Part shown: in pieces, positions 133-10,805 of the stretch
How the letters are laid out: each line of letters opens with the position of its first letter
How positions within the stretch are numbered: position 1 is the stretch's first letter
NCBI GenBank assembly: GCA_007129495.1
Contig: SKVJ01000009.1
Span: forward strand, 1-64,000
Origin: Dehalococcoidia bacterium
GTDB lineage: Bacteria; Chloroflexota; Dehalococcoidia; GIF9; AB-539-J10
Length of the DNA: 64,000 bases
Direction of reading: 5' to 3'
Program-made: the position numbers and the translations under genes
The notes under the pieces: generated by a model
Seen by the model: the letters and a program-made list of their open reading frames with translations, nothing else
Databases searched by the model: none
What the model was told of the DNA's origin: nothing

Positions 133-363
133 TCACTCCTTTTCGCTGTCCTGATTCTGTTGCAGGGACGCAGTCAGGACGTCCAGTGCAGTGTCACATC
201 GCTCACAGGTCTGGTGTTCGGGCTGCAGCAGTGCCCAACCGTAGTAGACCGCCCTGCACTCCGGACACGTTCCTTTTGGAGTACTCACACCACCTCCCTC
301 CCGGACCGTCCCGCGGGGTGTCGCCGGTGTCTCCGGTCGTCCCGTGAACCGGTGAACCTGCAT
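133..363 (-). CDS. Small zinc-ribbon protein
   Basis: This is a 76-residue protein. Cys33-Cys36 and Cys53-Cys56 form two CxxC knuckles, the pattern of a zinc ribbon that binds one structural Zn. No other domain is visible and the ends look disordered (Pro/Thr-rich N-terminus, acidic C-terminus). Its ATG overlaps the last base of the stop codon of the upstream signal peptidase gene (TGATG), so the two are probably translationally coupled. It may be an accessory or regulatory factor of the secretion cluster, but the sequence does not show what it binds. Confidence 0.6.
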   Translation of the reverse strand: MQVHRFTGRPETPATPRGTVREGGGVSTPKGTCPECRAVYYGWALLQPEHQTCERCDTALDVLTASLQQNQDSEKE

Positions 364-1547
364 CAGGACTCCTCCACCGGCGGCACGGATCGGTTGATGA
401 ACATCTCCTTGAACGCAACGGAGATCCAGCCCACGTCGCGGACCGTATACACATGCACGCCCACGACGTTATCGGCCAGCACCGGCTCCCTGTCCGGGTT
501 CTCGTTCGCGTCACCCTTGGTGACGAAGTACGTCCTGCCTCCTGTCTCCTCGATGTCCACCACTCGATGCAGCACCGCCGGCTGCTCTACGGACCGGAAC
601 TGGATGACGTCGCCCGGCTGTATCCGTGCGGGAGACTTCCTGGCAATGATCGCCACGTCGCCCACATCAAGCGCCGGCCTCATGCTCCCGCTGCCCACCA
701 GCACCGGCTGCAGAGGGAACAGTCCCACCGCGAACCAGATGATGAGCACCGCCACGATGCCGGTGGCCAGCCAGCCGCCGAGGGAACCCTCCTGTTGTCG
801 CACCTTCGGCGGGGCTGCCACAGATTCACCGGTGTAGAAGCTGTTTACGAGTATCATGCCGATTATGGGCACGGCCGTCCCCGCGAGCGTGGTGAACACC
901 CACGAGAGATTGGGCAGAACAGGGCACAGCCACCAGAACGCCTCCACCACGCCACGGTAGGCGATGGCTGCGCGCCACCCGGCCAGGTACGCGAGGTAGG
1001 ATGCCAACAGGTTCGCCGCCAGCAGCGGGAACACCGTGTTGCCGAGGTAGCGCACCGACTCGATGTTGGCTCCCAGGCCAAGCAGTCTGCCTGCCGACAG
1101 GTTGATGAGCGTGAACAGCAGTGTCGCCCCCACGATAGCAGCCACCGCGTGGCGTCTGCTGAAATGATTGATGAGCCACGCCCGGCTAAGTTCGATGCCA
1201 GCGAGCATCGAGCCTGCGAACACGATATTGGTGAGGATGCCCGTCGGTGTGAACGAGTACGGGCTCGTGCCGAAGCCCGAGAACAAGCCGGTGATGAGCA
1301 GCACTGCCACGTGGAACACGCCCACCAGCAGCGCCAGGTAGCACAGCGTGGAACGTTGATTCCTGCGCGCCAGGGGCTGCTGCCTCGGAAGCCGCAGCAC
1401 GAAGAACGCCAGCGCCGCCCACATCGCCGGCCGAATCACGTAGGATTTCAGCCCACCGTCTATGGGCAGCCGCGGCAACAGGTAGCTGGTCGCCACGTAG
1501 ATGGCCACCAGCCCCAGGACAATCACCATCCAGCCGTTCCTGCTCAT
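363..1547 (-). CDS. SipW/ER-type signal peptidase I with polytopic N-terminal domain
   Basis: The protein has 394 residues with the start at ATG 1545-1547, chosen because AAGGA stands seven bases before it. A longer frame upstream has no such signal. Residues 1 to about 280 hold several hydrophobic segments. The C-terminal ~110 residues form an S26B signal peptidase domain: Ser288 in the GSGSM motif, His327 in LHRVV, and a KGDANENPD acidic box. His in place of the usual bacterial Lys marks the ER/archaeal/SipW branch, which cleaves TasA/CalY-type preproteins. Four likely substrates lie directly upstream in the same direction. The polytopic N-terminal half is much longer than in Bacillus SipW (about 190 residues in total). 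Its role is unknown. Confidence 0.85.
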   Translation of the reverse strand: MSRNGWMVIVLGLVAIYVATSYLLPRLPIDGGLKSYVIRPAMWAALAFFVLRLPRQQPLARRNQRSTLCYLALLVGVFHVAVLLITGLFSGFGTSPYSFTPTGILTNIVFAGSMLAGIELSRAWLINHFSRRHAVAAIVGATLLFTLINLSAGRLLGLGANIESVRYLGNTVFPLLAANLLASYLAYLAGWRAAIAYRGVVEAFWWLCPVLPNLSWVFTTLAGTAVPIIGMILVNSFYTGESVAAPPKVRQQEGSLGGWLATGIVAVLIIWFAVGLFPLQPVLVGSGSMRPALDVGDVAIIARKSPARIQPGDVIQFRSVEQPAVLHRVVDIEETGGRTYFVTKGDANENPDREPVLADNVVGVHVYTVRDVGWISVAFKEMFINRSVPPVEES

Positions 1548-1611: not shown

Positions 1612-2199
1612 TCACGCCTTGTTCAACGCCTCGGAGATGTTCTTCATTGCCTCGTACTGCTTCGAGGTTATGGCCGCGGGATCGTCCGCCCTGTCCTCCA
1701 TCCCGGCGATGATCTCTGCCGCGGTGGCAGACGATGGCGATTGCAGCTCGAGGAAGTTCTCAGCATCATGCAACGTAACGTCATGGTAGGAAGACAGGTT
1801 CAGCCTGCCGGATGCCACGTTCAAGAGGGTGGCAAGATACTGTCTCAGGAACCGCGACTCCGATGTGCTGCCACGCCCGCTTCCAGCCCTGAAGACATCC
1901 GCCATGCCATCTGTCGTCGTTGGCCCCAGCCACATCGAGCCGGTATCTGCATCGACGAGGAATTCCAGGACCTGCGCCTCGGTATATGTCTTGTGGCTGT
2001 TCCAACTGCCCCAGAAACCGGGGCTGCCGCCTTCGTCCGGGTCTTCCCAGTTACCGGTGCTGATGGAGCCGCTGATGATCACTTCATCGATCCATGCACC
2101 ATAAACGACGCCGATAGAACCAACGGCGATGAGAACAGACAGACAGAGCACTGCAAGTCTGCTGGATGTCACTCTTCCCCGCTTCTTCGAGAGACTCAT
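1612..2199 (-). CDS. SipW-dependent-type signal peptide protein
   Basis: The start is ATG 2197-2199 with an AGAGGGA ribosome binding site, giving 195 residues. A basic N-terminus precedes a hydrophobic core that ends in GSIGVVYGAW followed by IDEVIISGSISTGNW, the hallmark of SipW-dependent signal peptides (cleavage expected near VYG-AW). The mature part is acidic and Ser/Thr/Gly-rich at first, then apparently helical. It does not align with the mature parts of the three neighbouring paralogues, so it may be a minor or adaptor subunit, as TapA is to TasA in Bacillus (inference). It ends 65 bases before the start of the signal peptidase gene. Confidence 0.75.
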   Translation of the reverse strand: MSLSKKRGRVTSSRLAVLCLSVLIAVGSIGVVYGAWIDEVIISGSISTGNWEDPDEGGSPGFWGSWNSHKTYTEAQVLEFLVDADTGSMWLGPTTTDGMADVFRAGSGRGSTSESRFLRQYLATLLNVASGRLNLSSYHDVTLHDAENFLELQSPSSATAAEIIAGMEDRADDPAAITSKQYEAMKNISEALNKA

Positions 2200-2311: not shown

Positions 2312-2965
2312 TCATGGCAACGGGTACTCGTCCCACTGGACAGCGACGAGCGTGATACTGAAACTCAGAGTATCGTTCTGCGGGGCTGGCTGCAGCACGT
2401 GCATCCACAGGCTAAACTCGAGGAACGAGGGTCCCGGTTCTATCTGGGCCCCAAAGTTGTCCCCGTACCGGATCTCGAAGTCATACACTCCATCTCCGCT
2501 GAGGTCCAGCGGAACATAGCTCACCGATGTCAACTTGGTTTCATTAATGAGCACGTGATCGATCTTCAATGGGACCGTGCCACAGTTCATCACGTAGAAG
2601 CTGAGTGAGTTGAAGTAGCACGGGTACGCGTTGTGAAGCGTGACGTTCAGCGTCTTGCCGTCAGCGCTAAGCTCGCACTCTCCCCACCCTACATTCTTGT
2701 CCACCAACCAGAAGCCTCGCCCCTGTTCATCAGGAGCAAAGCCGGGGTTGGCGCCGTAGTCCGGTGTCAGAGTTGGGTAGTCTCCACCTGGGTTGACCGG
2801 AGGGTGCGGATCAATGAAGACACAATCGGTGAACCGCCAACAGAGCGAGCCTGTAGTGACCGAGCCCTCAACGGTAACCTCGTCCGTCCACGCCGCGTAC
2901 GCCACACCCAGCGAACCGAGTGCCAGTACCAGTGAAAGGGTAAGTAAGCCTAGTCTCTTCTTCAT
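2312..2965 (-). CDS. SipW-dependent-type signal peptide protein (TasA/CalY-like paralogue)
   Basis: The protein has 217 residues. The start ATG 2963-2965 is preceded by an AGGTGAG site. The signal peptide has the core SLVLALGSLGVAYAAWTDEV followed by a VEGSVTTGS strand. The mature part shares with the next two upstream genes a block near AYPCYFNSLSFYV...CGTVPLKI and a C-terminal AVQWDEY, so these are paralogues and probably beta-sandwich proteins like TasA (family knowledge). It carries several Cys residues that could form disulfides outside the cell. The expected location is extracellular or on the cell surface after cleavage by the neighbouring peptidase. Confidence 0.8.
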   Translation of the reverse strand: MKKRLGLLTLSLVLALGSLGVAYAAWTDEVTVEGSVTTGSLCWRFTDCVFIDPHPPVNPGGDYPTLTPDYGANPGFAPDEQGRGFWLVDKNVGWGECELSADGKTLNVTLHNAYPCYFNSLSFYVMNCGTVPLKIDHVLINETKLTSVSYVPLDLSGDGVYDFEIRYGDNFGAQIEPGPSFLEFSLWMHVLQPAPQNDTLSFSITLVAVQWDEYPLP

Positions 2966-3038: not shown

Positions 3039-3722
3039 TTACCCGTTATAGGGGTAGAAACCCGCTCCTTCCTGGTACTCGTTCCACTGTATGGCCTGGA
3101 TCATCGCCTCAAACGACCCTTCGAGGTTCATCAGGTCGTTGTCCTGCGGCAGATGGATTGTCATCGCCACAAGGATCCGGTCGCACTCATGCACCTGGAC
3201 ACCTACGTCTACCGGGTCACCAAGGAAGTCATGAATGTCGTCTTCGCCATGCACGTACCCTGGAAGAACATGCCATGCCATGAACTGGACGTCGAGGTTA
3301 TCGATAAGGGCCTGGTCACCAGTGACGTCCGTCACCTCCGCGTACAGTTTCGCTGGGACGCTTCCGTTGTAGTGCAGCAGGAAGTCAGCCATCAGCGTCT
3401 CGCATGGGAAGGCGTTTTCGAACGAGACGACGATGTCAGCCTCGTCTCCTTCCCCTGCACGAGCCGACGCACTTGCGACCGGCCAATAGTTAGCGTCGTC
3501 CGCGTAAGGGTCGTCGCCCATCCAACCGTGCCAGGACACCATCTCGTCGGTCTCGAGGTCTTTGTAGATGGCTGAACCGGAGTAGTCGACGACATTCAGT
3601 TCGACAGAACCGGTGTTAACCGTGCCCTCGATGGTGATCTCGTCCGTCCACGCGGCATAGGCCACGCCAAGGCTGCCGAGTGCAAGAACGAGCGCCATGG
3701 TAAGCAATCCTATCCTTCTCAT
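3039..3722 (-). CDS. SipW-dependent-type signal peptide protein (TasA/CalY-like paralogue)
   Basis: The protein has 227 residues with ATG at 3720-3722 behind GAGGAGG. The signal peptide runs MRRIGLLTMALVLALGSLGV, then AYAAWTDEITIEG. The mature chain contains ENAFPCETLMADFLLHYNGS, a PQDNDLMNLEGSF segment and a C-terminal IQAIQWNEY, all mirrored in the 4155-5192 gene. It is acidic (many Asp/Glu), as expected for a secreted surface or fibre protein. A structured repeat (3797-4036) lies just upstream in its probable 5' leader. Function by analogy is extracellular matrix or fibre formation. No catalytic motif is visible. Confidence 0.8.
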   Translation of the reverse strand: MRRIGLLTMALVLALGSLGVAYAAWTDEITIEGTVNTGSVELNVVDYSGSAIYKDLETDEMVSWHGWMGDDPYADDANYWPVASASARAGEGDEADIVVSFENAFPCETLMADFLLHYNGSVPAKLYAEVTDVTGDQALIDNLDVQFMAWHVLPGYVHGEDDIHDFLGDPVDVGVQVHECDRILVAMTIHLPQDNDLMNLEGSFEAMIQAIQWNEYQEGAGFYPYNG

Positions 3723-3796
3723 CTTGTATTTCCTCCTCAGTCTGTCAGTCCGCGCTGTGCGGCTTCATTGCCTCACAAGTGCGGCATCAACCACAA

Positions 3797-4036
3797 CCAC
3801 CCCATCTTCGACTTGAGGTGTGCCTTACCCGGCTTCGCACCAACCCATTGCGCCGCGACATCTCCCGGACTACAATGCAGTCCGGGCGGCCGGACCGCGT
3901 TCCTGCCACAGCGGGTTGGGCTCCAACCTGTAGTCCGCTGCGGCAACTCCTGTATCCACAGGACGGGCGTTGCTCGCCGGTCGCCCGCGACCGACCTCTC
4001 AGGCCTCATCGAGCCTTTTCGCGGGCAGCTCGGCAG
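3797..4036 (-). repeat. Structured intergenic repeat, copy 1
   Basis: This 240-base segment is repeated at 5267-5505 in the same orientation. It contains a string of hairpins kept in both copies: 3864-3871/3879-3886 (loop acaatgc), 3914-3919/3923-3928, 3948-3953/3958-3963 and 3979-3984/3987-3992. In the first hairpin one A-T pair is T-A in the other copy, which keeps the pairing. The element ends 74 bases before the start codon of the SipW-substrate gene at 3722, so it could be a 5' leader RNA or a DNA-level repeat. No known riboswitch class was recognised. Confidence 0.8.
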
Positions 4037-4154
4037 TAATTCGTCACCACACACTTCTGGTGTCTGTTCCGCGCCGCCCGGAATCGGATTCCGGTTCCGT
4101 CCGGCGCTTCACTTGTTAAGGTTCACTAGTGCGGGCTTACCCGCAGTTGCGGTA

Positions 4155-5192
4155 CTACGCCTCCATAACATTGACGTGTACGCCGTAGTAGTTGTTCTCG
4201 GGGATTTCGTCGCTGGGACTGGCCCAAGGGCTTGACATCGCCGTGTACTTATACGCGAACAACCCGGAAGCCGGAGTTCCGCTGGGCGCCTCTTGATAGT
4301 CCTGGATGTAGACGTTCTCACCGTTGTAGGTCGAGAACAGCCAGCCATCAAGCAGGGTGACCGTGATGGTCACGAAGCCGTCTGACGGCGCAGAGAAGTG
4401 CACCCAGCCGACATGTGTGTCCGTGCCGGCGATGAGGCTTACGGTCAGCGGCTCCCCACCATAGGTTACGTACATGGCAATGTCGGCGTTGTAGCTCTCG
4501 CCCTCGGCCCAGGCGGACTCGTGACCATTTCCGGGCTCGACGCCATTCTCGTCATCGTCGCACTCGCTCCACTGGATGGCGTTGATACTACCCGAGAACG
4601 ATCCCGTCAGGCCCTGGAGGTCGTTATCCTGCGGTATCTCCACACAGATCTCGACAATGACGTAGTCGCAATAGTGCATCTGCAACGGCTCGTCGACGTC
4701 AAGCGCGTCACCCCTCTCACCGTCCGCGTCAGACCGGTAGAAGTTCACCACTGCATAACCACTCTCCCACAGATCCATCAGCCACGGCTCTTCCGTATCG
4801 ACGTCCACGCTCACATACGCCGGGACACTGCCGATGTAGTGCACCAGGATGTCAGCACAGAATTCAACGCCCGGGAACAGGTGATCGAACTCGAAAATAA
4901 CGTCAGCTTCGTCATCATCGTCACCGGTTCTGGCTGCGGCCCAGCCAATCGGCTCAGGCAAGACTGGAACACCCACAGGGTCTCCCAGTGGCAGCCATCC
5001 CGTGAGCACCTCTATTCCGTGCTCGTCCACCTTCCAGGCCTCAGTACCGGAGTATGCGACGACTTCCAGTTCGACACTACCGGTGGTAACCGACCCTTCG
5101 ATGGTTATCTCATCCGTCCACGCGGCATAGGCTATGCCAAGGCTACCGAGCGCAAGAACGAGCGCCATGGTAAGCAATCCTATCTTTCTCAT
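4155..5192 (-). CDS. Large SipW-dependent-type signal peptide protein with extra C-terminal domain
   Basis: The protein has 345 residues. The start is ATG 5190-5192 behind GGAGGAAG. An upstream in-frame ATG would add 26 charged residues ahead of the signal peptide and is rejected. Residues 1 to about 25 are almost identical to the signal of the 3039-3722 paralogue (MRKIGLLTMALVLALGSLGI). Residues ~30-215 match the paralogue, ending in INAIQWSE. A low-complexity acidic linker (DDDENG) then leads to a second ~120-residue domain rich in Gly, Thr and aromatic residues, possibly a pre-peptidase-type beta-sandwich (inference). It is probably the largest extracellular subunit of the set. Confidence 0.8.
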   Translation of the reverse strand: MRKIGLLTMALVLALGSLGIAYAAWTDEITIEGSVTTGSVELEVVAYSGTEAWKVDEHGIEVLTGWLPLGDPVGVPVLPEPIGWAAARTGDDDDEADVIFEFDHLFPGVEFCADILVHYIGSVPAYVSVDVDTEEPWLMDLWESGYAVVNFYRSDADGERGDALDVDEPLQMHYCDYVIVEICVEIPQDNDLQGLTGSFSGSINAIQWSECDDDENGVEPGNGHESAWAEGESYNADIAMYVTYGGEPLTVSLIAGTDTHVGWVHFSAPSDGFVTITVTLLDGWLFSTYNGENVYIQDYQEAPSGTPASGLFAYKYTAMSSPWASPSDEIPENNYYGVHVNVMEA

Positions 5193-5266
5193 CTCTATCT
5201 TCCTCCACCCCTTTGTTGCGTTGCCCCGGGGAGACTCGCTGTCCTTCCCTCGGGCTTTCACAACCT

Positions 5267-5505
5267 CCACCCCATCTTTGACTTGAGGCGTGCCTTACCC
5301 GGCTCGCAGCACCCCTTTGCGTCCCGACTTCTCCCGGTCTACAATGCAGACCGGGCGGCCGGACCGCGCTGTTGCCACAGCGGGTTGGGCTCCAACCTTT
5401 ACTCCGTTGCGGCAGCTCCTGTGTCCACAGGACGAGCGTTGCTCGCCGGTCGCCCGCGACCGACCCTTCGGAGCCTCTCGGCTCCCTTCGCGGGCATCTC
5501 GGCAG
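5267..5505 (-). repeat. Structured intergenic repeat, copy 2
   Basis: This is the second copy of the 3797-4036 repeat, again 74 bases upstream of a SipW-substrate start codon (5192). Its conserved hairpins are 5333-5340/5348-5355 (loop acaatgc, with the swapped T-A pair), 5383-5388/5392-5397, 5417-5422/5427-5432 and 5448-5453/5456-5461. Its outer end touches the stop codon of the receiver-domain gene (5513). Loop sequences and stems are kept while the linkers drift. Confidence 0.8.
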
Positions 5506-5512
5506 GGAATTC

Positions 5513-5908
5513 TCAATAGATCTCTTCATATCCGTTCCACGCCAGCCGGAGCAGGTTCCTCGCCCTGGCCAGCAGTTCTCTTGTATCCACAGGCGGCGAC
5601 ATATAGACATCTACGCCCATCTCGAAGTACGGTATGGCGTCTCCGCCATCGCAGCTCGCACCCAGCATGATCACCGGCACCGGACACCTGTCCCAGAGAT
5701 AGCCCATCAGCTCCCTGCACCCGTTACGGGCCGATCTCTCGGCCATGACGATAAGGTTGGGACAATGCAACATCACTTCATGCAGTGCCTGCTGCGTGTC
5801 GCTGCCAAGGGCGGTCACCCGATAACCGGACACTTCAAATACCCGCCGGAGGTGCTGCCGCACCTCGGCGTCCGGTTCGATCAGTAGCACCCTGTCAGCA
5901 GACAACAC
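5513..5908 (-). CDS. Degenerate receiver (REC-like) single-domain protein
   Basis: The protein has 131 residues, starting at GTG 5906-5908 (a later in-frame GTG is possible). The pattern is a CheY fold: RVLLIEPDAEVRQHL at strand/helix 1, NLIVMAE at strand 3, PVIMLGA at strand 4 and GVDVYMSPPV at strand 5. Where strand 3 normally ends in the phospho-accepting Asp there is Met-Ala-Glu, and the conserved Lys of strand 5 is replaced by Pro. It is therefore probably a pseudo-receiver that cannot be phosphorylated normally and may signal by binding a partner. It lies upstream of the SipW cluster on the same strand, with repeat copy 2 between. Confidence 0.65.
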   Translation of the reverse strand: MLSADRVLLIEPDAEVRQHLRRVFEVSGYRVTALGSDTQQALHEVMLHCPNLIVMAERSARNGCRELMGYLWDRCPVPVIMLGASCDGGDAIPYFEMGVDVYMSPPVDTRELLARARNLLRLAWNGYEEIY

Positions 5909-5920
5909 AGGACCACAGTA

Positions 5921-6492
5921 CTACGGACCGTCGTCACTTTGAATACCCGGGCGTTCCCGTTCCGTTCCAGAAGTGTTCCATTTGCGTCCCATAACCGTCC
6001 CGCAGGAAGCGTCCAAACATGAAAGGGCCGGGCACAGCGACAACGTGTGGAAAATGAAGGGGTGCTCGCGAACGCCCCCGAGGAGGCAGGTATGAGATGG
6101 CGACAGGCAGGTGGCCCGCGGCGCGTCAGTCAACGTACGAGGGGTTCGGAGACGGCGCAACCGCATCCAAGTGCGGAATGGCGTGCGGAATGGCGTGCGG
6201 TATGTGGTGGGCGCTTGTAGATTCAATTCCTGGGGCCGGTTCGCACACCGCCCGCCTGGGTGGTGGGAGTGGTCGCGTAGGGACGCCACATGTGGCGTCC
6301 GTTGTCCGGATAACTCCATCACCGAGCAACACAACCGCGGTTCCACCGCAGAACAACGGACGGAACATGTCCCGTCCCTACAACGGAATTGAATTCGCAC
6401 GCGCCCACCATATACCCAGGGCCGGTCTGACACCACAACCGTGGGCGTGCATTCGGAAGGATGGCGGGCCGTCCGGAAACGGCCCGCCACGA
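5921..6492. other. Intergenic region with tandem repeat and MITE-like element
   Basis: No convincing gene is present. Reading frames here on both strands lack family features. The region holds a short tandem repeat (12-mer gtgcggaatggc, about 2.5 units, 6171-6200) and the inverted-repeat element 6199-6416 described separately. Confidence 0.6.
6199..6416. repeat. MITE-like element with ~31-bp terminal inverted repeats
   Basis: The ends 6199-6229 and 6386-6416 are inverted copies of each other (26 of 31 positions match by eye). Inside are the palindrome ggacgccacatgtggcgtcc (6281-6300) and a gggacatgttccgtcc-like motif in inverse form (6361-6377). It has no coding capacity. Parts of it recur at 8696-8838. 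Size and structure fit a small non-autonomous mobile element. No transposase source is visible in the window. Confidence 0.6.
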
Positions 6493-8354: not shown

Positions 8355-8876
8355 TGCATCTCCTCAGTGCCACTTCGCCGGTGCCATGATGTCACGACGC
8401 AGGTGCAACGCAACGCACCCACCAACGCAGAACAGGCCATGCGCAGGCACTTTATACGGCACAATGCGGACAGTCTCGCATAATAATGTTAAGTGAAGAT
8501 GAACGTGGACCTTTTGGAATCAGGTTTTCCCGCTACCGGGAGGAAAATCCCGGACACCAGACAGGGGTCGGCCGGCCTGTGCGGCATGGGACCGGGCATC
8601 AGGTCAGAAAACGGCCACAGACGGCCCGCGGCGCATCGGCCAATGCGGGCACCGTTCTGCAATGGCCCGCCCGCTTTCAGGTGCGGGTTGGCGTGCCCTA
8701 TCTGGTGGAAACCTGTGAATTCAATTGCGTCGTAGCGACGGGACATGTTCCGTCCGCCATCCGCTATATCACACGCCCACGTTTGTGGTGATCACGGTTA
8801 TGTCGTTGTCGGACAGCGGACGCCACATGTGGTGTCCCTGCACGATCACACTGCCCACTGCCCGTGATTCCCCGTA
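8355..8876. other. Intergenic region with repeat-derived sequence
   Basis: No gene is supported. The segment 8615-8838 contains sequence related to the element at 6110-6416, partly in the same orientation (around 8618-8726) and partly inverted (8715-8838). Confidence 0.5.
8696..8838. repeat. Second, rearranged copy of the MITE-like element
   Basis: It carries the attcaatt-containing end (8696-8726), a gggacatgttccgtcc motif (8740-8755) and the imperfect palindrome ggacgccacatgtggtgtcc (8819-8838). Read on the minus strand, the core follows the order of the 6281-6400 core. The left flank matches the other copy in direct orientation, so the copies are rearranged relative to each other. The NEW3 and SurA-like genes lie between the two. 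Confidence 0.5.
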
Positions 8877-9605: not shown

Positions 9606-9828
9606 CCATTCACCCCCCGCCCGCTACTGCACCCCGCATCGATGATGCCGAGGCGGCTACCGACCATCCGCCGCGAAAATACCCAGTACCATAGTACATC
9701 ACCAGGCTCCGCTGTCAAGATGGACTCTCTTAAACCTCTGCAACTGAAGTTACATGAACCGTCTGTTTCGCATCTAATCGACCGGGATTTTTGGTCCAGC
9801 CGACTCAGGTCCTGCGACCAACTTGCTA

Positions 9829-9893: not shown

Positions 9894-10097
9894 GTGCAGG
9901 AACCTTCGATTGAAGAGGCGCTTCTCACAACCAGCCAGGTTGCACAACTCCTGCACGTACATCCCAATACCGTCAGGAAATGGGTGGACAGGGGTCTGCT
10001 GGCCGCCTACCGACTCGGTCCCCGTGGTGACAGGCGCTTCTCAAGAGAGAATCTGCAACGGTTTCTCAACTCCGAGTGGCCGGCTGACCATAGCTGA
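9894..10097 (+). CDS. Excisionase/MerR-like helix-turn-helix protein
   Basis: The protein has 67 residues and starts at GTG 9894 with GAGG upstream. LTTSQVAQLLHVHPNTVRKW is a textbook HTH_17 (excisionase family) helix-turn-helix, followed by the wing RGLLAAYRLGPRGDRRFSRE. It is a small DNA-binding protein. No integrase or phage gene is adjacent, so it is more likely a stand-alone regulator than an active excisionase. It faces the rplL end of the ribosomal operon. Confidence 0.75.
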   Translation: MQEPSIEEALLTTSQVAQLLHVHPNTVRKWVDRGLLAAYRLGPRGDRRFSRENLQRFLNSEWPADHS

Positions 10098-10162
10098 ATC
10101 CGCATCCCGCCCGTGAGTGCCACCCGCCGGGAGGGCCGCAATAGCACAGGGTGCCACCCGCA

Positions 10163-10286
10163 CTACGTTTCCTCGTGCGCTATGCTGTCTTGCTTCCACG
10201 GTCGCACCAGCGGTCTCGAGCTTCGCCTTGACTGCGGCAGCCTCTGCCTTGAACACGGACTCCTTGACGTGCTGAGGGGCACTCGA
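10163..10286 (-). pseudogene. Decayed tandem duplicate of the rplL 3' end
   Basis: This segment repeats the last ~90 bases of rplL and the bases after its stop, with a period of about 141 bases (10163-10286 against 10304-10425). Its minus-strand translation matches the L7/L12 tail closely (APQHVKESVFKAEAAAVKAK). There is no start signal or N-terminal part. A perfect 10-bp hairpin (10274-10283/10288-10297) lies at the junction and may now serve as the 3' end of the operon. Confidence 0.8.
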
Positions 10287-10325
10287 CAGTGCCCCTCGCA
10301 ATCCTACGTTTCCTCGCGCCTTGTG

Positions 10326-10805
10326 CTATTTAACTTCCACGGTCGCACCAGCAGCCTCGAGCCTGGCCTTGACTGCGGCAGCCTCATCCTTGGATACGGA
10401 CTCCTTAACATTCTGAGGGGCACTCTCGACGAGGTCCTTTGCCTGCTTGAGGCCGAGATCCGACAGCTCGCGGACGGCTTTGATGACCTCGATCTTCTTC
10501 TCTCCGATGGCCTGAAGAACTACGGTGAACTCGGTCTTCTCCTCTTCCTCTTCAGCCGCTTCGGCGGGCGCGCCTGCGACGGCGGGAGCGCTCGCCACGG
10601 CGACTGGCGCTGCACTGACACCGAACTCTTCCTCGAGCGCCTTCACCAGGTCGGAGAGTTCAATAACCGTCATCTCCTTGACTGCGGCCAGAATCTCATC
10701 GATTCCGAGACTCTTGCTCTCTTTCTTCGTGCTCTTCTTTGCGGGTTTCTTCTCTTCGGCCTGCGTTTCCTCTACGGCCGCGGCCTGCGTCTCTTCTGCG
10801 GACAT
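10326..10805 (-). CDS. rplL: Ribosomal protein bL12 (L7/L12) with N-terminal extension
   Basis: The protein has 159 residues against about 120-130 in most bacteria. The start is ATG 10803-10805, seven bases after AAGGAGG. Residues 1-32 are a Glu/Lys/Ala-rich extension. From [20 protein letters not shown] on, the chain is a normal L12: N-terminal dimerisation domain, Ala-rich hinge ([20 protein letters not shown]) and C-terminal factor-binding domain ([22 protein letters not shown]). It forms the ribosomal stalk with L10, encoded directly upstream, and recruits EF-Tu and EF-G to the ribosome. Confidence 0.95.

Follow-up and report, generated by a model that had tools for sequence, protein, structure and literature searches.

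Comparison across Dehalococcoidia genomes reveals a conserved RNA fold, formed by the gene strand and built on a constant core. The fold precedes genes that are unrelated to one another, and its direction is always that of the gene that follows. It likely represents a new family of riboswitch-like, cis-regulatory 5' leader RNAs for exported-protein messages, as it shows two features expected of such leaders: a fixed, co-oriented 5' position and a conserved structure with compensatory changes. This reading rests on comparison only, with neither transcript nor binding data. We consider it a previously unlisted leader RNA family, that is, a new family and not a new kind of element. Dehalococcoidia include organohalide-respiring bacteria used in the clean-up of chlorinated solvents as well as a large uncultured sediment lineage, and their surface regulation is poorly understood.

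Twin leaders in the source genome

Two copies of the leader are found in the window, i.e. the whole stretch of 64,000 nucleotides analysed from a Dehalococcoidia bacterium (contig SKVJ01000009.1, from position 1), and no further copy was found in the 2.1-Mb source genome (Table 1). They are 240 and 239 nt long with 87% identity (E 8e-78), are read from 4036 to 3797 and from 5505 to 5267 on the minus strand, and each ends exactly 74 bases before the ATG of its co-oriented gene (ATGs at 3722 and 5192). An earlier, sequence-only reading had described these ~240-bp copies at 3797-4036 and 5267-5505, their distance to the ATG and their shared orientation, all of which held. Its assignment of the downstream genes to the SipW substrates held too, with TIGR04088 scores of 16.2 and 17.2 bits, just below the cut-off of 19 bits; the operon's next gene scores 22 bits. 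Read 5' to 3', the locus comprises a receiver-only regulator, leader 2, a substrate, leader 1, two further substrates, an exported protein and a SipW-like signal peptidase. No terminator-like or sigma-70-like sites were found at window positions 3600-5700.

Table 1. Window coordinates of the two leader RNAs, their helices and the genes of the locus
Feature	Position	Strand	Remarks
Leader RNA copy 1, type A	3797..4036	-	P1, P2/P2b core, P3 with large genus-specific arm, P4
Copy 1 P2 5' strand (GCCCGCG)	4020..4026	-	pairs with 3983-3989
Copy 1 apical hairpin P2b	4001..4016	-	three pairs doubly compensated against copy 2
Copy 1 internal-loop strand GGUCGGU and P2 3' strand CGCGGGC	3983..3996	-	most conserved block of the family
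Copy 1 P3 and enclosed multi-hairpin arm	3829..3980	-	P3 is 3976-3980 with 3829-3833
Hairpins in copy 1 P3 arm	3949-3962, 3904-3945, 3864-3886	-	arm restricted to this genus
Copy 1 hairpin P4 (CACCUC...GGGGUG)	3798..3820	-	3' strand SD-like, 5' strand anti-SD-like
Leader RNA copy 2, type A	5267..5505	-	architecture as copy 1
Copy 2 P2 5' strand	5489..5495	-	pairs with 5452-5458
Copy 2 apical hairpin P2b	5470..5485	-	
Copy 2 hairpin P4	5268..5290	-	
Receiver-only response regulator	5513..5908	-	7 bases separate its end from copy 2; also the neighbour in G045, G024, G013
SipW-type exported protein behind copy 2	4155..5192	-	345 aa
SipW-type exported protein behind copy 1	3039..3722	-	227 aa
Further SipW substrate	2312..2965	-	lacks its own leader; TIGR04088 score exceeds cut-off
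Exported protein	1612..2199	-	operon gene between third substrate and signal peptidase
SipW-like signal peptidase	363..1544	-	last in operon

Could a recent duplication in this operon, spanning a gene and its upstream region, have left the leader as a functionless by-product? The twin units are indeed collinear, with leader and first 33 codons each ~85% identical and a constant spacing of 1470. However, the 74-nt spacers between leader and gene are poorly conserved whereas the leaders are not, which argues that the leader has been specifically kept, and 21 other genomes have homologues, with compensated pairs, upstream of unrelated genes. Duplication alone is thereby all but excluded. The twins are the product of a gene-plus-leader duplication in which the leader has since been maintained, and this leader is also part of a wider RNA family. 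The two alternatives of the earlier reading, a new leader RNA or a duplicated gene-plus-leader unit, therefore hold at once.

Both twins fold more stably than shuffled sequence (z -2.7 and -3.3). The earlier reading had singled out the hairpin at 3864-3886 and 5333-5355, where an A-T pair in one twin is T-A in the other around an identical loop, as a mark of selection on structure. The observation held. As evidence it is weak alone, since the third full-length homologue (G045) has T.T at this pair, and it is the wider family that carries the case. Three pairs of the apical hairpin (4001-4016 and 5470-5485), missed in that reading, are exchanged on both sides between the twins and provide the better twin evidence. 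When the twins and G045 are taken together, a nine-helix fold pairs 97.7% of cells with six doubly changed pairs, the A-T/T-A pair among them, against 2.2 in shuffled and at most two in slid alignments.

Two other features of the window were noted. The segment 6199-8858 carries inverted repeats (6357-6414 with 8699-8756 and 6260-6308 with 8810-8858; 82-84% complementary) which enclose two genes (7437-6493 and 8354-7701) between two response-regulator genes; the latter adjoin in relatives, and the segment resembles an insertion. At 10163-10425, the 3' part of a gene for a ribosomal protein L7/L12-like protein (10832-10326) is duplicated just downstream (122 nt, 84% identity), and the resulting ORF at 10041-10301 is probably spurious.

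A conserved fold in 22 genomes

By DNA search, one full-length homologue was found within the genus (G045, 80%) along with two short matches to the 3' end only. Used as a pattern, the 3' motif gave 10 matches in 9 of the 52 genomes of the family, compared to none for the reversed-pattern control, and most of these matches were flanked on the 5' side by a second conserved block. Three successive covariance models extended the motif set; model R2, built on six sequences, recovered unseen members at E 1.8e-20, 1.8e-18, 6e-15 and 2e-14. Together, motif and covariance-model searches yielded 32 members, plus a weak one (G024:C54), in 22 Dehalococcoidia genomes. Among the records carrying members are Dehalococcoidia bacterium CSMAG_2721, CG2_30_46_19 and CSSed11_253R1 and Chloroflexi bacterium RBG_13_51_36. 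Four members reside in complete genomes with 9-42 reductive-dehalogenase matches each, which we take to be Dehalogenimonas or its relatives; no member was found in the three Dehalococcoides-like genomes (g40) tested. When 393 genomes of the class were searched for the pattern GCCCNNGG...GGTCGRTCNNGGGC, convincing matches were confined to families f1 and f16.

Several weaker candidates were set aside. Matches to GCCCNNGG...GGTCGRTCNNGGGC outside f1 and f16 were about as many as for the reversed control and mostly came from larger genomes. Hits of model R3 outside the class (400 genomes of the phylum; E 3e-4 to 0.015) are near chance for that number of genomes and were not accepted, nor were hits of model R1 in other families (E 4e-4 to 1), where the two inspected, L030 and L058, resemble coding sequence. 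We also rejected loci L053, L057, L073, L074, L092, L093 and L098, in which the core is missing. The P4 motif had no match in viral contigs.

The universal core, about 50 nt long, reads GCCC-N-U-GG-R, the apical hairpin P2b, then N-GGUCG-RUC-N-N'-GGGC, and its apex varies in sequence yet stays paired. The most conserved positions include the unpaired UGG and GGUCGRUC of the internal loop and the P4 loop ARAU. Type A (14 members, including the window copies) typically adds P1 (UGCC/GGCA), P3 (ACCGGGC/GYCCGGU, enclosing anything from nothing to an arm of more than 100 nt) and P4 (CACCUYAARUYRAAGAUGRGGUG). Type B (14 members) has the core and P4 with loop ARAU, P4 being unrecognisable in G027, and type C (four members, from the dehalogenase-rich genomes) consists of the core alone. 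Readings of the core and the downstream GAUGAGA as kink-turn, T-loop or hammerhead were considered by eye and dropped.

In a 30-member alignment, 92% of cells are paired, compared to at most 57.5% with slid partners, and 13 cells are doubly changed against 4.8 in shuffles; the fifth P2 pair (A-U, G-C, C-G, U-A) and P4 both show double changes. Independently of any alignment, the P2b arms pair better with their cognates than in any of 20,000 permutations, and for the P3 arms only 16 of 20,000 permutations match the cognate pairing. Covariation is strong in the apex (P2b), P3 and P4; P1 and most of P2 are nearly invariant and therefore lend little support of this kind.

The earlier reading had left open RNA or cruciform structure. 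On the gene strand there are 58 G.U cells against 8 A.C cells (32 against 8 without a near-constant G-U pair), which favours RNA of that strand and disfavours a cruciform. The same imbalance speaks against a DNA-level dyad bound by a regulator, for example one of the neighbouring response regulators. Response-regulator genes do adjoin several type A loci (type B neighbours were not systematically covered), but the orientation is fixed relative to the gene and the multi-helix architecture spans up to 240 nt, which makes a DNA element very unlikely.

A mobile, MITE-like repeat that landed upstream of genes by chance might explain the patchy distribution, with 0-5 copies per genome. Against this, the source genome has just two sites, copies within one genome are not near-identical, no terminal repeats were seen, and the orientation is constant, always just 5' of a gene and nearly always of one functional kind. 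Chance landing of a mobile repeat is all but excluded. The earlier reading would have been refuted by a lack of homologues with covarying stems, or by copies at random sites. The covariance-model search it had proposed was run and gave neither outcome: 21 other genomes carry covarying homologues, standing just 5' of genes of one functional kind, with members in 22 genomes of Dehalococcoidia and results near chance in other classes of Chloroflexota.

Target genes and relation to known RNAs

A readable, co-oriented gene follows in 28 of the 30 aligned members, the other two having none in the sequence examined, and wherever such a gene exists the RNA is 5' of it in the same orientation. Exported proteins with an N-terminal signal sequence account for 25 of these 28 targets, comprising SipW substrates, beta-helix-like proteins, small TVTGS-type surface proteins, a Peripla_BP_6 substrate-binding protein and a lipase-like protein; the remaining three are glutamate dehydrogenase orthologues. 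Our export heuristic called 24 of the 28 targets compared to 11 of 65 window genes (a 17% baseline; nominal P 3e-15, the members not being independent). The 25th (G025a) falls outside this count, its signal-like stretch lying behind a long 5' extension of the ORF. One genome (G024) carries four copies and the weak one ahead of non-homologous genes.

The new RNA matches no family among the 4227 covariance models of Rfam 15, at gathering or permissive thresholds, in the Rfam scan that had also been proposed. No description was found in open-access full-text literature or three motif surveys (PMC2864571, PMC8632094, PMC6429828), subscription papers being outside the search; of these surveys, the one from 2010 names Chloroflexi only for the Chloroflexi-1 and pan motifs, and neither of the others refers to Chloroflexi, Dehalococcoidia or SipW. 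The family resembles the orphan riboswitch candidates and structured leader motifs of these surveys in its conserved unpaired residues, variable apical stems and regulon-like distribution ahead of genes, although their texts show no such motif. Like protein-bound autoregulatory leaders, such as those of ribosomal proteins, it has a hairpin in the 5' UTR whose conserved internal loop could serve as a protein site. However, its targets are functionally mixed exported proteins, so autoregulation of a single RNA-binding protein does not apply.

The c-di-GMP-II riboswitches (RF01786; RF03169 for c-di-GMP-II-GAG) are likewise 5' leaders of the same kind of exported-protein genes in the same genomes, but differ from the new RNA in core sequence and architecture. 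No scanned member matched RF01786 or RF03169 at gathering thresholds or at E up to 3-10, whereas genuine c-di-GMP-II copies in the vicinity reach 50-61 bits. Five type A loci (G041, G013, G045, G008 and G028, the last a weak match at E 7.5e-4) have a c-di-GMP-II riboswitch on the same strand, 1.3-3 kb upstream, and in the first three the order is c-di-GMP-II riboswitch, OmpR-like regulator, receiver gene, new RNA and exported-protein gene. Elsewhere in these genomes, c-di-GMP-II riboswitches mostly precede exported proteins too, including beta-helix-like ones. They are present in 17 of 22 genomes with the new RNA compared to 9 of 26 without it, a difference that genome size and kinship may confound.

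c-di-GMP-II riboswitches at L004:3027-3110(-), L009:2935-3018(-) and L017:419-502(+) stand directly before OmpR-like response-regulator genes, after which come a receiver-only regulator and the new RNA. The arrangement is a conserved Dehalococcoidia locus that combines c-di-GMP, regulator and fibre. In the window, the leader of the OmpR-like regulator (9620-9705, minus strand) has AGCGGAGCCTG in common with the c-di-GMP-II aptamers of relatives. A decayed c-di-GMP-II copy before this response regulator (9605) was considered and not adopted: the leader does not match the c-di-GMP-II model, and a decayed or variant copy is merely possible.

Proposed mechanism

Many members have -10-like sequences (GATTAT, TACTAT, GATAAT) directly before P2 or P1. 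Transcription may thus start at the fold or just before it, an inference from promoter-like sequences with no transcript data. Such a position would also suit a constitutive 5' stabiliser, in which a strong hairpin senses nothing and simply protects or boosts highly expressed messages from a place at or close to their 5' end. The targets, surface proteins and glutamate dehydrogenase, look highly expressed (there are no expression data), and the apex is free in sequence provided that pairing holds. However, a stabiliser needs a stem only, yet the unpaired core residues and the P4 loop are the most conserved positions. Furthermore, in two dehalogenase-rich members a promoter-like TTGTAA-17-TATTAT lies ~30-40 nt before P2, so the stem need not sit at the 5' end. 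We regard a pure stabiliser as unlikely, though still possible.

As for the regulatory leader, the hairpin varies freely except in its conserved unpaired residues, a pattern that points to specific recognition, and the fact that unrelated genes have the same core in front of them points to one partner acting in trans. The internal loop is thus predicted to bind a single shared partner, either a small molecule or an RNA-binding protein, for which there are no binding data. Binding would alter whether P4 forms, the core serving as the sensor. In P4, an SD-like strand (GRGGUGG) is paired to an anti-SD-like one (CACCUC), the latter resembling the 3' end of 16S rRNA, so ribosome loading on the leader could depend on whether P4 is open or closed. 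For most members of type A, this loading may be set at a short upstream ORF behind P4: the ATG of such an ORF lies 6-10 nt behind P4 in most of type A, two glutamate dehydrogenase leaders and G033, and 15 nt behind it in G040, and in G034 the start codon of the main gene is where the short ORF ends. Because of the SD-like pairing and the nearby ATG, translational control through P4 is the reading we favour, as an inference. There are counterpoints: most type B members lack a short ORF, the main genes' own Shine-Dalgarno sites lie outside P4, and P4 is missing in type C, which means that not every member can use a P4 switch. The upstream ORFs are short and their coding conservation is only partial.

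As to what is sensed, a metabolite, making this a riboswitch, is compatible with the conserved unpaired core, but without binding data we would not quite bet on it; a protein is possible, equally without binding data. Speculatively, the signal may be part of the surface or biofilm programme under the c-di-GMP-II riboswitches of the same genomes. In a bolder reading, which is no more than possible, the family would be a new riboswitch class sensing c-di-GMP or another signalling nucleotide, forming with c-di-GMP-II a two-layer RNA circuit for surface fibres and exoproteins. The idea of an RNA regulon dedicated to exported proteins and interwoven with c-di-GMP riboswitches lends itself to direct testing, since the core is easily synthesised and occurs in complete, dehalogenase-rich genomes. 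A ligand, if found, would add a riboswitch class; a protein would add a post-transcriptional regulator of the secretome.

Finally, two dehalogenase-rich genomes have a terminator-like hairpin and T run just upstream of the core (L105 and L104, about 1400-1490), ending a few bases (G252) or ~45 bases (G242) before it. In G252, the gene upstream encodes an HD-GYP-type response regulator.
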